A DNA stretch of 64,000 nt from IMG/VR virus record IMGVR_UViG_3300015371_000016, positions 1 to 64,000 of that record; one strand, given 5' to 3'. Source of the stretch: a virus. The first letter of the stretch is position 1; each line of letters begins with the position of its first letter. The position numbers were made by a program, and so were the translations under genes. The notes beneath the pieces are model-generated. The model did not search any database. It was not told the origin of the DNA and saw only the letters and a list, made by a program, of their open reading frames with translations. Positions 32,744 through 53,519 of this stretch are shown here, in pieces.

Positions 32744-34509
32744 GCAGGCAGTTTCTCCCGTGCGGTATCGAGCGCCTGCCTTCCACGTGCTGTCAACATG
32801 TCGTCGGGCAGATCGCGTAGGTGGTAGATGTAAACGTAATAGCAGCGGCAGTTGTGCGTTACGACTCCCTGGGCTACATACCAATTATTGATAGTTTGGA
32901 GATTGTAGACGTGCCCAGACCAAGGCCGGTTATTGATGTGGACCACATTGCTGCGCTTCGTAGCGAAGGGAAGGCTGTCTATGAAATTGCTGACGCCATT
33001 CACGTAAAGCCGACGACCCTCTGGGAGTGGCACAGGAATAGATGGATCGATCTCGGGCCAAAGTTGCCCCCTAGCCCGCGTATTTGTCTCGACCAACGCG
33101 CTATCCGCGCCGCCCATGACAGCGGTGAAAGTGTGCTCTCGATAGCCAATAGGTTTGGCGTATCGCGTTTGACGATCAAACGTCATATTCAGAAGGCCGG
33201 CGGACAACCTCGTACCCAGACTGAGGCAAATATCCTCATCGCTAGAAATAAGACGCCCGACCAACATAGTGCTGACGCCAAGGCTGCTCATCAAGCTAGA
33301 CGAGGCAAAAAGGCTTCGCGCACCGAATTGCTGCGTAGAGCAAGAAGTCAGTCCAAGATAATCGGGTACGGAGAGGCCGAACTTGTTACCGCTCTTACTG
33401 CTAAGAACCTGCGCCCCGACGTACAACGGCCTGTAGGTCCATACAATATCGATATCGCTATCGGTACCATCGCCGTGGAATTGCTGGCGCTGCCCACGCC
33501 GTGTCTCAGAGAACCCAAATTTCACGAGCGAGCTATATATTTGCTCAATGCTGGGTATTGCATCGTTATCGTCAGATTCCGTCCCGGCGACCTCTCCGGT
33601 AGCCTCGATGACGTGATCGCCATTATTCAAAGACTGAATAGGACGCCACCCGCACGGCGTAAGAATTGGATGATTTGGTGTCGCGCGGAGCGTTTTACCC
33701 GTGTCCGTAATCAGCTCGGTCAATTGACCGCTGTACCAGCGCCGATACGCTACTTCCACACCATCAGCGAATGGAAGCCTGGTATCTCCCGGTAAGCAGA
33801 ATATTTCTTCGCCCGGCTGAGTGATCTTGTCCGAGAAGCCCGCGTCTCCGGCCCGCATGAAGCCGCGTGTGTGCGCCCAGCTATTCCGGATCGCATACAC
33901 CTGCTGGTCGCGCTCCTTGTGGTCCTCGCGATAATCGTAGCCGGACTGGCGCCAGTGTGAGCGCCAGCGTGCGGCAATCGCTCCCGCGTCCTCTGCTAGG
34001 ATCGCCGAGACCGAAGCATTCAGCTTGTGACCCTGATCGATGATCACCCGTCGCTCGACGAACGGCAGCGAGGTCAGACCCTTGCGTATCTCCCGCTTCT
34101 GCTCTCTGCGGTCGAGCTGGTCGGTGCCGCCAATCGGGACACTGGTGGCCCAGCCCTGAAAGCGCCTCAGCGTGTCGTTGATCGCCTGCTCACGGTTCAG
34201 TTTGATCAGATCGGCTGACGCCTGGATGCGTCGGTTTAGTTCCGCCCGCAGCTTCGGCGCTATCCGCTGTACCGTAAAGCGATCTACACCTGGATGGCGG
34301 CGCAGCACCGTTCCTTCATCGATCAATCGCGTGTAGGTCGAGCCTAGCACCTTGCGCAGCTCTTCGGCCAATGAACGCTCTGACACCATGTCAGTAATGG
34401 CCGCCTCGCGGATCAGATCGATCCAATACTGCAAACGCTCTTCGGACTCATAGCCGTGCTCAGCGATATCGTTCAGCGCGTCAGTGACAACCTGGAAGAA
34501 CGTGGCCAT
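32740..34509 (-). CDS. Head morphogenesis protein (SPP1 gp7/MuF-like) interrupted by an intein
   Basis: 589 residues precursor. The N-extein (1-237) and C-extein (554-589, CRCYYVYIYHLRDLP) together form a minor head protein of the SPP1 gp7/MuF type, whose CRC motif is normally continuous. An intein occupies 238-553, so splicing should give a 273-residue mature protein. A TAGGA site precedes the ATG. The gene follows a repeat block, with portal and terminase further upstream, as expected for MuF. Function: head assembly at the portal. Confidence 0.85.
   Translation of the reverse strand: MATFFQVVTDALNDIAEHGYESEERLQYWIDLIREAAITDMVSERSLAEELRKVLGSTYTRLIDEGTVLRRHPGVDRFTVQRIAPKLRAELNRRIQASADLIKLNREQAINDTLRRFQGWATSVPIGGTDQLDRREQKREIRKGLTSLPFVERRVIIDQGHKLNASVSAILAEDAGAIAARWRSHWRQSGYDYREDHKERDQQVYAIRNSWAHTRGFMRAGDAGFSDKITQPGEEIFCLPGDTRLPFADGVEVAYRRWYSGQLTELITDTGKTLRATPNHPILTPCGWRPIQSLNNGDHVIEATGEVAGTESDDNDAIPSIEQIYSSLVKFGFSETRRGQRQQFHGDGTDSDIDIVWTYRPLYVGAQVLSSKSGNKFGLSVPDYLGLTSCSTQQFGARSLFASSSLMSSLGVSTMLVGRLISSDEDICLSLGTRLSAGLLNMTFDRQTRYAKPIGYREHTFTAVMGGADSALVETNTRARGQLWPEIDPSIPVPLPEGRRLYVNGVSNFIDSLPFATKRSNVVHINNRPWSGHVYNLQTINNWYVAQGVVTHNCRCYYVYIYHLRDLPDDMLTARGRQALDTAREKLPA
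32821..33795 (+). CDS. Vsr-like homing endonuclease ORF antisense to the intein
   Basis: 324 codons open on the plus strand, from 30 bases before the intein's 3' boundary to three bases inside its 5' boundary (the TAA is 33793-33795). The product has two helix-turn-helix-like segments (VYEIADAIHVKPTTLWEWHR; VLSIANRFGVSRLTIKRHIQ). A restriction-fold segment follows, with GPYNIDIAIGTIAVELL and AIYLLNAGYCIVIVRF, like Vsr/EDxHD-type homing endonucleases. No ribosome site was identified. If real, it is the mobility enzyme of the intein encoded on the opposite strand. Confidence 0.6.
   Translation: MVDVNVIAAAVVRYDSLGYIPIIDSLEIVDVPRPRPVIDVDHIAALRSEGKAVYEIADAIHVKPTTLWEWHRNRWIDLGPKLPPSPRICLDQRAIRAAHDSGESVLSIANRFGVSRLTIKRHIQKAGGQPRTQTEANILIARNKTPDQHSADAKAAHQARRGKKASRTELLRRARSQSKIIGYGEAELVTALTAKNLRPDVQRPVGPYNIDIAIGTIAVELLALPTPCLREPKFHERAIYLLNAGYCIVIVRFRPGDLSGSLDDVIAIIQRLNRTPPARRKNWMIWCRAERFTRVRNQLGQLTAVPAPIRYFHTISEWKPGISR
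32851..33798 (-). other. Intein in the MuF-like protein
   Basis: Residues 238-553 (316 aa). The N-terminal splice junction is C238 (CLPGDTRLPFADG). Block B is TPNHPILT at 277-284, with the usual Thr-x-x-His. The C-terminal end is WYVAQGVVTHN followed by Cys of the extein. No LAGLIDADG or HNH motif is visible in the sense reading. The middle (FHGDGTDSDIDIVW) resembles, from memory, inteins in other MuF-type proteins. Insertion is directly before the conserved CRC of the host protein. Confidence 0.85.
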
Positions 34510-34526
34510 TCGTTCCTACTGACGTT

Positions 34527-34745
34527 GCGTTGCGTTGCGTTGCGTTGCGCAGCGGTGCGTGGCGGTGCGTGGCGCTGTGGAGAGGCGCGTTGCGGAGCGG
34601 AGCGATGCGGAGCGAAGTGGTGCGGTGCGGTGCGTTGCGTGGCGGTGCGCAGCGATGCAGCGCGGCGAGGTGCGGTGCGCGGCCGGGCGGAGCGTGGCGT
34701 GGCGTGGAGAAGCGCGGCGAGGCGTAGCGGTGCGTGGCGGCGCGA
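34527..34745. repeat. Degenerate 5-bp repeat block 1 (G[C/A]GNN)
   Basis: About 44 pentamers in one register: GCGTT GCGTT GCGTT GCGCA, then GCGGT GCGTG and so on, with G-C/A-G fixed and two variable bases. Lies between the MuF start and the upstream ORFan. All frames are open by composition but none looks like a gene. Confidence 0.85.
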
Positions 34746-34750
34746 AGACA

Positions 34751-35266
34751 TTACTTCCTGACATGAGAACGTCGTGGCGACAGACTGATCATCCATTCGA
34801 CTGCATTGAACGCGGGCAGATCGTTGGACGATCCGCGTGATACCTTCTCGATAGCTCGTACACCGCGCCTCGAAAGCGTCCATAGCGCCGCTTCGCGCAC
34901 GATCGAGTCCGTAGAAAACCGTGCCTGCTCGTCGAGATTTAAAGCGTCTAGCTCCACTACCTCTGCCTGCTTCCGGCCGGCGCCAAGTCGGTTATTGGCT
35001 CCCTTAAGATACCAAGAATGCTGTCGCTCGGCGATCTCTGGATCGGTCAGCCGACGCAGTCCGATCCTCGGACGGATGCAATCCCAAACTTGCAAATGTT
35101 CTCTCTCAAGTATGCGGCGCGCGGAAATCAGAAAGCCAGTAGAGGAAGTCACAGGTACGCCAGCTATCGACGATAGGTCTTCGTAAGTGAAGACTGATCC
35201 TTTCTCGTTCTGGGCCAGATATCGAACTAGGGCTGATGTAACCCCCGAACGCTCGAACTTGATCAC
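34751..35266 (-). CDS. HTH-like ORFan between repeat blocks
   Basis: 171 residues from GTG with AAGGA six bases upstream (a TTG two codons earlier is possible). The N-terminal part (LVRYLAQNEKGSVFTYEDLS, then SIAGVPVTSSTGFLISARRI) looks like a winged helix. The C-terminal WTLSRRGVRAIEKVSRG is basic. It is flanked on both sides by GMGNN repeat blocks, as if inserted as a unit. Function unknown, possibly DNA-binding. Confidence 0.6.
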   Translation of the reverse strand: MIKFERSGVTSALVRYLAQNEKGSVFTYEDLSSIAGVPVTSSTGFLISARRILEREHLQVWDCIRPRIGLRRLTDPEIAERQHSWYLKGANNRLGAGRKQAEVVELDALNLDEQARFSTDSIVREAALWTLSRRGVRAIEKVSRGSSNDLPAFNAVEWMISLSPRRSHVRK

Positions 35267-35280
35267 GATCAATCCTTATA

Positions 35281-35544
35281 TTGCGTTGCGTTGCGTGGCG
35301 GCGAGATGCGAGGCGTAGCGCGGCGTTGCGAGGAGGCGATCTGCGTTGCGTTGCGTTGAGGCGAGGTGCGAGGCGGTGCGGAGCGTCGCGTTGCGGTGCG
35401 CAGCGGCGAGCGGCGCTGAGGGGTGGCGCGTGGCGATGCGTAGCGTTGCGTGGCGACGAGCTGCGCGGCGGCGAGTTGCGAAGCGTAGCGTGGCGTCGAG
35501 CTGCGAAGCGGTGCGTCGCGAAGCGCTGCGGGGCGTGGCGCCGA
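35281..35544. repeat. Degenerate 5-bp repeat block 2 (G[C/A]GNN)
   Basis: About 53 consecutive pentamers keep the register without a slip; for example GCGTT GCGTT GCGTG GCGGC, then GAGAT GCGAG. It lies between two ORFans. GC-rich and lacking long inverted repeats. Confidence 0.85.
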
Positions 35545-35546
35545 TA

Positions 35547-36134
35547 TCAGACTTTTAACTCCTGCCACTCGAACTTGGTTACACGGAAGCGCCCATTGCT
35601 GCCGGCATTAGCGGGCCGTCCACGACCGAGGCCGACGATCATCCCGCCTGATCTGAGAGTATGCTCGAAGACCTCGGCAGTAATAATGTCATCGACAACC
35701 GTGAACTCAGCGACGCCGTGCCATTTATCGAATACCGGAAAGCGGCGCTTGACGCGCTTTCCTGATCCACGCACGCCGTCAGAATTGGCGTTGATCATAA
35801 CCATCTTGGCGTCGTCTGGCTTGAGCGGCTTGCCGTTCGCGATCGGCATATTCCCGTTGCAGATTACGCCGGAGGTAAAGAAGCTCTTATATGTCGCTCC
35901 GCGCCGGCCGGGCACCTTGTCGCCCAGCTTCTGCGCTGCGAGATCGATGCATTGCTTCAGTCCCATCTGTGGAACACAGACTTGCCCTTCCGCTGTCGTG
36001 GTGCACTTTTCCCGCCACGTCCGCGCGTCATAGTCATCGTGAGACTCGCGATCTAGCCACGGCGCTTCGTGCAGCGCGGATTGGCTATAGGGTGAGCCAG
36101 GAATCGATTCCAGATATGCTTTGCATGTCTTCAT
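35547..36134 (-). CDS. Conserved phage protein of unknown function
   Basis: 195 residues. KAYLESIPGSPYSQSALHEA, SHDDYDARTWREKCTTTAEG and GSGKRVKRRFPVFDKWHGVA match, from memory, a protein family seen in many phages, often close to recombination genes. The N-terminus is acidic/aromatic and the C-terminus basic (NGRFRVTKFEWQELKV). Here it is isolated between repeat blocks in the head operon, so it may be a cargo gene. No catalytic motif visible. Confidence 0.65.
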   Translation of the reverse strand: MKTCKAYLESIPGSPYSQSALHEAPWLDRESHDDYDARTWREKCTTTAEGQVCVPQMGLKQCIDLAAQKLGDKVPGRRGATYKSFFTSGVICNGNMPIANGKPLKPDDAKMVMINANSDGVRGSGKRVKRRFPVFDKWHGVAEFTVVDDIITAEVFEHTLRSGGMIVGLGRGRPANAGSNGRFRVTKFEWQELKV

Positions 36135-36174
36135 CCTAGATTATTCCTTGTTGCGTGCGTTTTTGTGACGGGAT

Positions 36175-36290
36175 GCGGTGCGGTGCGACCGAGTCGCGGT
36201 GCGGTGCGTTGCGTCGCGTTGCGATGCGAGGCGTCGAGGTGCGGAGCGATGCGTGGCGTTGCGGTGCGACGAGATGCGATGCGACGCGTC
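36175..36290. repeat. Degenerate 5-bp repeat block 3 (G[C/A]GNN)
   Basis: About 23 pentamers (GCGGT GCGGT GCGAC ... GCGAT GCGAC GCGTC) with one single-base register slip near 36190. It lies upstream of the 35547-36134 gene. Confidence 0.8.
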
Positions 36291-36313
36291 GATATCCCTC
36301 AGAGACCGGCCCG

Positions 36314-36424
36314 TCACGGCTGGTGCACGTTCCAGCGGCGCCCATAGCGCCACCGATCCCAAAGGAATTGGTAATATCTATCGTGCTCTCCAGGCACCGT
36401 GACGGCGGCGCTTTCGCCGGGCAT
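36314..36424 (-). CDS. Possible 36-residue peptide between repeat blocks
   Basis: ATG at 36424 opens MPGESAAVTVPGEHDRYYQF and ends WRYGRRWNVHQP, rather protein-like for a random frame. No clear ribosome site. It could be a small cargo gene or the remnant of a larger gene. Otherwise 36291-36469 holds no recognisable feature. Confidence 0.3.
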   Translation of the reverse strand: MPGESAAVTVPGEHDRYYQFLWDRWRYGRRWNVHQP

Positions 36425-36469
36425 GAAGGCACAACTTTATATGCGGGTCAAGCGGTTCCTTCTGTTATG

Positions 36470-52728: not shown

Positions 52729-53519
52729 AGCGCGACCCTCTGTCCCACATCCGCGAATAAATCGTGGCCGTTCGGCTTTCGTGGCAGCCGCTCGCTGGCC
52801 GTGATCAGCCAGATCCTAAATCGGGAATCCCAACGAATGCATTTTGCTCCCTTGGCCTCCGCCCAGCTTCGCATTTTATCCACTTCGAGATTGAAGCCGC
52901 GTTCGTCGAAGCCGAGCGATTTGGCCAGGGCGATGTGCTTGACAGTGGGAACCCAATCGTCAGGCAATTCCGTCTCGCGTGCGCGTGCGCGTGCGCGCGC
53001 GGAGTCCGAACGAAGTGAGGACTCTCTCTCTTGGGAGTCCTTGGGGGATTCTTTCTTAGGGGGATTCTCTGCAAAGTTTGCAGGTTCGAATTGCAGTGTT
53101 TTGCAGGTAAAGTTTGCAGAATTTGCAGGTTCAGACGAGGTTGCTGTCTGCAAATCTTGCATATCATGCTGCGAATCTTGCACCTTTGCTGCCTGCAAAT
53201 CTTGCATATCACGCTGCAAATCTTGCACCGTTTGATCTGCGGATTTTTCAGTCTTGGGAGGGTCTGCCGGTCGCAGAATGTGGTAGTGGTGCACCTGTCG
53301 CTTACGCGCTTCGATACGAATTAGTTTGGCTTCGGCTAGTCTGTGTACCGCACTATGGACAGTTCGCTGGCACAATTCCGTCTCGACGGAAATGGTCGAT
53401 ATAGACGGCCAACAGATCATAGAGCCGTTCGCCTTGTCGGCGAGGTAAATCAGGACGACGCGCTCTGAGGCTGAAAGGCCACGTTGACGCAATGCCCAAA
53501 CGACGTGAGGACAGCTCAT
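52725..53519 (-). CDS. O-like replication initiator with internal iterons
   Basis: 264 residues. About 1-80 is a winged-helix HTH (RQRGLSASERVVLIYLADKA, WPSISTISVETELCQRTVHS). The middle carries Gln/Asp-rich repeats (VQDLQRDMQDLQ, VQDSQHDMQDLQ) encoded by the iterons at 53070-53227. An Arg/Ala run (ARARARARE) and a C-terminal domain (WDSRFRIWLITASERLP) follow. Gene order initiator then helicase, and repeats inside the gene, recall lambda O with its origin. Confidence 0.75.
   Translation of the reverse strand: MSCPHVVWALRQRGLSASERVVLIYLADKANGSMICWPSISTISVETELCQRTVHSAVHRLAEAKLIRIEARKRQVHHYHILRPADPPKTEKSADQTVQDLQRDMQDLQAAKVQDSQHDMQDLQTATSSEPANSANFTCKTLQFEPANFAENPPKKESPKDSQERESSLRSDSARARARARETELPDDWVPTVKHIALAKSLGFDERGFNLEVDKMRSWAEAKGAKCIRWDSRFRIWLITASERLPRKPNGHDLFADVGQRVAL
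53070..53227. repeat. Iteron-like repeats, candidate replication origin
   Basis: TGCAAATCTTGCA at 53149, 53194 and 53215, with variant TGCGAATCTTGCA at 53170, and the palindrome TGCAAAGTTTGCA at 53070. Start-to-start distances are 21, 24 and 21 bases, about two helical turns. They lie inside the O-like gene. Confidence 0.65.

Follow-up and report, generated by a model that had tools for sequence, protein, structure and literature searches.

The window, a stretch of 64,000 bases that is part of a 77,127-base virus record, carries on its minus strand a head gene interrupted by an intein and, on the plus strand of the intein itself, a gene for a nuclease-like protein. In the usual description of a homing intein, the endonuclease is a domain within the intein's own reading frame. 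The present element is very probably a homing intein with a separate endonuclease gene on its opposite strand, so that its two activities would belong to separate proteins encoded on either strand of the same roughly 880 bp, a segment under selection in both frames. The original prediction was that the centre of the intein is the antisense translation of its mobility gene. This held in that the nuclease-like protein is real and both frames are selected; that the antisense protein is also the mobility enzyme is probable from its fold, its position and its patchy insertion.

An intein and an antisense gene in one codon register

The host gene (34509-32740, minus strand) encodes a 589-aa precursor of a MuF/head-morphogenesis protein and matched PHROG 324 (head morphogenesis, E=1.1e-19) and PHROG 15127 (head protein, E=1.2e-48). 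The PHROG 15127 profile itself matches the intein sequence, and unrelated proteins with this intein therefore receive the label 'head protein'. The intein (32851-33798, minus strand) lies where it had been predicted and comprises 316 residues, from Cys1 (codon 33796-33798) to Asn316 at the end of a terminal THN, followed by Cys+1. Blocks A, B, F and G, the N-terminal nucleophile, the C-terminal Asn and the +1 Cys were all present, and the splice residues C1, T40, H43 and N316 showed no variation across 23 homologues. Pfam Intein_splicing matched at 1.4e-8, with 35.1 bits, slightly under the curated cut-off of 35.8 bits. Block F (H296-V-Y-N-L-Q-T in GHVYNLQT) occupies 32893-32913 and block B (TPNHPIL), which overlaps the C-terminal tail of the nuclease in a segment constrained in both frames, occupies 33661-33681, both on the minus strand. 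The AF2 model of the intein, with pLDDT of about 83-97 for residues 1-70 and 86-97 for residues 271-316, adopts a HINT fold and matched the Mtu RecA mini-intein (2in0) with Z=13.2 and 1.5 Å over 107 residues.

Some rDNA group I introns carry homing-endonuclease genes in antisense orientation (PMC9548176), and the insert might be considered a group I or II intron that carries such a gene and is removed from RNA. This is extremely improbable, since the insert is open in frame and has the canonical intein blocks, the terminal Cys and Asn, Cys+1 and the HINT fold. Furthermore, Rfam gave no match at E<=1 in the window stretch, and none in two Acinetobacter phage loci (L029 and L037); among five relatives no intron family reached the gathering score, the sole match being DUF3800-IX RNA, away from the intein. 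The introns share with the present element a mobility gene opposite the host-gene strand. However, the gene of the L2066 intron is inserted in a peripheral region of the intron (P9), so that its opposite strand encodes no protein (PMC9548176), whereas in the present element both strands encode protein for about 880 bp.

The plus strand of the intein is open for 324 codons (32821-33795), and direct reading agreed with the prediction that this frame stops three bases inside the 5′ boundary of the intein: the stop codon (33793-33795) lies directly inside the C1 codon, one codon into the intein. The two frames share a codon register, each codon on one strand being the reverse complement of a codon on the other. 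As predicted, the intein motif FHGDGTDSDIDIVW (intein residues 107-120; 33439-33480, minus strand) was found in both frames to be the exact antisense reading of PYNIDIAIGTIAVE in the nuclease core (nuclease residues 177-190).

The most likely true start of the nuclease is GTG at 32911, because homologues have a common start that faces the block-F His. This defines a homing-endonuclease-like gene of 294 codons (32911-33795, plus strand) ending in TAA, a delimitation based on its conserved ends, selection and the AF2 model. The GTG at 32821, taken as the start in the original prediction, was rejected as 30 codons too far upstream, since the start in homologues faces the block-F His and the sequence upstream of it follows the intein's own blocks F-G. 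The antisense gene consequently covers nearly all of the intein and not, as first proposed, its entire length, about 7% being left uncovered. Start and stop positions are conserved among homologues, with the stop 1-31 codons inside C1 in loci with a placeable C1; in nested loci with both ends placeable the gene starts at block F and does not extend beyond the intein. The nuclease frame was unannotated in the nested phage records inspected. An annotated phage gene on the nuclease's strand, 'sam' gp43, is in a different frame and hence is not the nuclease. A promoter scan found no sigma-70-like promoter near the nuclease gene.

Block F appears to double as the translation start region of the nuclease. 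The block-F His codon of the window is CAC, whose reverse complement provides the GTG start; in homologues the nuclease ATG is the complement of a block-F His codon CAT, and the antisense string LEVINM common to them is the reverse complement of block F HVYNLQ. A Shine-Dalgarno-like GGAG (32898-32901, plus strand) precedes the GTG by 9 nt and faces the Leu/Gln codons of block F. Homologues have GGAG(G) opposite the Asn-Leu-Gln codons, and 37/45 family loci carry a Shine-Dalgarno-like sequence. His was found at the block-F start position in 37 of 45 family loci, compared to 2 of 14 unrelated chromosomal inteins. In the 24 loci with Leu in block F, the Leu codon was CTC, which gives GAG on the nuclease strand, in 18 cases versus 4.5 expected from the exteins of the same genes (P=4e-9). 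Judged from this codon usage, synonymous Leu choice in block F favours the nuclease Shine-Dalgarno. In one subfamily (L013, L018-L020) block F lacks the His, reading PVYTV or PVFTV, and the ATG of the nuclease is several codons downstream, the start signal having been relocated.

Predicted structures of the two proteins

The original prediction assigned HTH motifs and a Vsr/EDxHD-like core to the antisense protein, and profile and structure comparisons bore this out. The first HTH unit (residues 10-42; 32938-33036, plus strand) matched Pfam HTH_23 (E=1e-6), and the second (residues 58-98; 33082-33204, plus strand) matched HTH_38 (E=2.4e-10) and, structurally, the HTH of gamma-delta and Tn3 resolvases (Z about 6-7). 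The catalytic domain (residues 150-250; 33358-33660, plus strand) contains E155, Q172, GPYNIDI (with D181), E190 and R207, which are invariant or nearly so among 31 members; of the acidic active-site residues, all of them present in the window protein, D181 and E190 are invariant and E155 occurs in at least 90% of members. In the AF2 model (pLDDT 83), both HTH units have three helices and are accompanied by the catalytic domain, whose best matches were I-Bth0305I (3r3p, Z=10.0, obtained with VIA), 3hrl (Z=9.6) and Vsr (1cw0, Z=9.5). Foldseek E-values were modest (0.008-0.01), and a sequence profile match to 3hrl (E=2.4e-6) agreed with the structure matches.

Pfam REase_MTES_1575 (PF18741) was matched by 24 of the 31 family members and PHROG 3339, 'homing endonuclease', by six. 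The window nuclease alone gave no match to REase_MTES_1575 at E 0.01, which counts against the homing-nuclease reading. A Trp-His after E190 is present in a subset of members and absent in many others, including the window nuclease. Since the His is missing, the full EDxHD signature is incomplete and we classify the enzyme as Vsr/EDxHD-like rather than EDxHD. The predicted catalytic fold is thus shared with I-Bth0305I/EDxHD (Vsr-like) enzymes and REase_MTES_1575 nucleases. EDxHD enzymes also have a nuclease domain tethered to DNA-binding units (PMC3943268), as does the window nuclease. Unlike those enzymes, the present one is antisense in an intein and has two N-terminal HTH units, and its window member lacks the Trp-His.

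The middle of the intein is modelled less uniformly. AF2 placed the segment FHGDGTDSDIDIVW in strands with moderate confidence and predicted residues 132-266 to be disordered, so that in the model much of the intein opposite the HTH half of the nuclease is disordered.

Selection on both frames

Single codon-pair differences were classed by their effect, with the first letter for the intein frame and the second for the nuclease frame (S, synonymous; N, non-synonymous). Counted over nine locus pairs and in the order of intein codon positions 1, 2 and 3, there were 528/416/1052 differences in the exteins, where the third position was fastest, and 622/254/416 in the overlap core, where the order was reversed and the fastest position was the third (wobble) position of the nuclease. 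The reversal was seen again between the window and locus L045 (120/59/94). Rates in the overlap core per 100 opportunities were 5.20 for NS, 1.73 for SN and 0.78 for NN. The NS/NN ratio of 6.7 (P=2e-69) places the nuclease frame under purifying selection, and the SN/NN ratio of 2.2 (P=5e-8), compared to 1.2 (P=0.24) in an extein mirror control, indicates that the intein frame is constrained too, although more weakly than the nuclease frame. Over 11 pairs, the intein stretch facing the catalytic core, which is folded in the AF2 model, had an SN/NN of 3.1, compared to 1.9 for the stretch facing the HTH half, predicted to be disordered, and 1.05 for the extein mirror control. Both frames were constrained in the block-B tail (NS/NN 3.9, SN/NN 8.8), and blocks A and F-G evolved like coding sequence of the intein frame. 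The Pfam matches and the modelled catalytic domain indicate that the antisense frame encodes a real protein, and the substitution patterns place it under purifying selection.

Openness of the antisense frame is insufficient evidence by itself, because some unrelated GC-rich chromosomal inteins also have antisense-open runs of 352-501 codons. Same-register antisense frames are often open in GC-rich coding DNA, and the antisense ORF could in that case be a by-product of codon bias. We give this explanation next to no chance. The antisense proteins show matches to HTH and nuclease families and are homologous between phages that differ in base composition, their start and Shine-Dalgarno are conserved, and substitutions follow the antisense frame, contradicting chance openness. 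In addition, the codons TTA, CTA and TCA, which would stop the intein frame, were absent from the nuclease genes against approximately 331 expected with extein codon usage as a proxy (log10 P about -170), whereas a free-standing nuclease homologue exists in Acinetobacter phages and uses 12 such codons.

Conversely, it might be that only the nuclease gene matters and that the frame through the middle of the intein is incidental, or that the intein no longer splices. The excess of NS/NN far above SN/NN in the overlap core and the predicted disorder of intein residues 132-266 point in this direction. We nonetheless regard it as very unlikely: the splicing blocks and terminal residues are invariant, blocks A and F-G are maintained as intein coding sequence, SN/NN exceeds the mirror control, and no intein-frame stop occurred in 52 loci despite hundreds of stop-making codons expected. 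Moreover, an insert that did not splice would disrupt a head-morphogenesis protein.

Spread, mobility and relation to known elements

A tblastn search with the plus-strand protein identified 124 phage records, with matches mostly within genes annotated as head proteins or hypothetical proteins. They included Aaphi23, S1249, Edwardsiella phage MSW-3 and phages of Klebsiella, Vibrio, Pseudomonas, Gordonia, Mycobacterium and Salmonella; IMG/VR supplied further loci, and a search of gammaproteobacterial genomes with the nuclease gave few matches. Both frames were open in 52/52 non-redundant nested loci, from phages of Pseudomonadota and Actinomycetota and from uncultivated viruses, with the intein frame free of stops across the nuclease gene. 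A single-sequence search with the intein as query returned six loci, each with a nuclease on the opposite strand, and the same held for two phages chosen from among the intein hits. None of the homologous inteins seen had a broken antisense frame, and nuclease profiles did match, so that neither outcome named beforehand as refuting the original prediction was obtained. In loci L012 and L014 the nested intein sits in a PHROG 19005 host protein, to which no function is assigned, instead of a MuF protein.

Comparison with intein-free homologues indicated clean insertion. Among jerseyviruses, the N-extein of the head gene was present in 286 records and the intein in 70. Salmonella phage BPS11Q3 carries the intein, whereas ST1 and PBSE191, about 97% identical to it on the N-extein side, lack it and have a continuous protein (..AHPN|CRST..) at the empty site. 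Likewise, Shewanella phage QDWS has an intein-free homologue of the window's type of head gene, joined as ..EEPFC RCYGVY...

These observations fit a homing cycle in which the nuclease would be translated from a plus-strand transcript and would cut a head gene lacking the intein, at the insertion site or close to it, whereupon repair would copy the intein into the cut gene. Because the nuclease gene is confined to the intein it travels with it, and because the intein would excise itself from the head protein the host gene would keep working. As the two proteins come from opposite strands they could be made separately, unlike in a canonical intein with an endonuclease domain.

In the Acinetobacter phages IME285 and BUCT629 (L029 and L037) we found an AT-rich, free-standing nuclease homologue downstream of an intact, intein-free head gene, with which it is convergent and overlaps by 7 bases. 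With the head gene intact and the nuclease free-standing downstream, this case was rejected as an interrupted gene. The existence of this homologue, together with two HTH units that could act in regulation, would be compatible with a real nuclease whose main role is not homing, for instance the exclusion of competing phages or HTH-mediated regulation, the intein serving as a safe harbour. Such a role is unlikely in view of the confinement of the gene to the intein in nested loci with both ends placeable, the patchy presence and absence with clean junctions, and a nearest fold that is that of a homing endonuclease.

The homing reading shares with canonical homing inteins (in-frame LAGLIDADG or HNH domain) the HINT blocks A, B, F and G before a host Cys, the patchy presence and an endonuclease coded inside the intein; it differs in that the endonuclease is a separate opposite-strand polypeptide and the middle of the intein its antisense shadow. 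The ShiLan element, an out-of-frame HNH endonuclease in a phage methylase, similarly hides its endonuclease in another frame of an insert open in the host frame and has a GTG start, but there the gene is on the same strand, the enzyme is HNH and there is no splicing domain (PMC11855218). Ambigrammatic narnaviruses likewise have a long reverse-complement ORF covering a known gene; that ORF is reported to be without known function (PMC6884476), whereas the present case has two recognisable folds and a DNA phage insertion.

We see about an even chance that these loci represent a widespread, undescribed class of bidirectionally coded homing elements, on opposite strands in the same register, with block F shaped both as a splicing motif and as a ribosome-binding site and start codon, and with opposed transcription that might limit nuclease expression to periods without late head operon activity. 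If opposed transcripts do interfere, a mobile element could by this simple means keep its own nuclease in check. The element is in any case a natural example of double coding over a long antisense overlap, with an identifiable fold for each of the two proteins. It bears on the origin of overlapping genes, with a spacer predicted to be largely disordered opposite the DNA-binding half and a folded, more constrained part opposite the catalytic core, and it suggests that an entire class of endonuclease genes escapes annotation. The hosts are very different, and the cultured Salmonella, Klebsiella, Pseudomonas, Gordonia and Mycobacterium phages allow easy experiments.

A 2025 preprint by Gosselin, Arsenault and Gogarten, a survey of actinobacteriophage inteins (bioRxiv 10.1101/2025.01.02.630785), mentions 'non-canonical architecture' in its title. 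The Gordonia and Mycobacterium members of the family could be in that survey, and part of the finding of an intein with an antisense endonuclease may already be described there; no such description was found in the literature searched, in which PMC11855218, PMC9548176 and PMC3943268 come closest. PMC11855218 cites the preprint for overlapping reading frames in actinobacteriophages.

Elsewhere in the window, three imperfect GC-rich repeat blocks (34516-34764, 35269-35568 and 36141-36432) lie between minus-strand genes. They have a step of about 5 bases with GCGGT/TGCGN units (TRF periods 5-40, score up to 139), and contain long runs open in several frames on both strands. A 45-base tandem repeat with 2.1 copies and 91% matches is located at 53141-53234.
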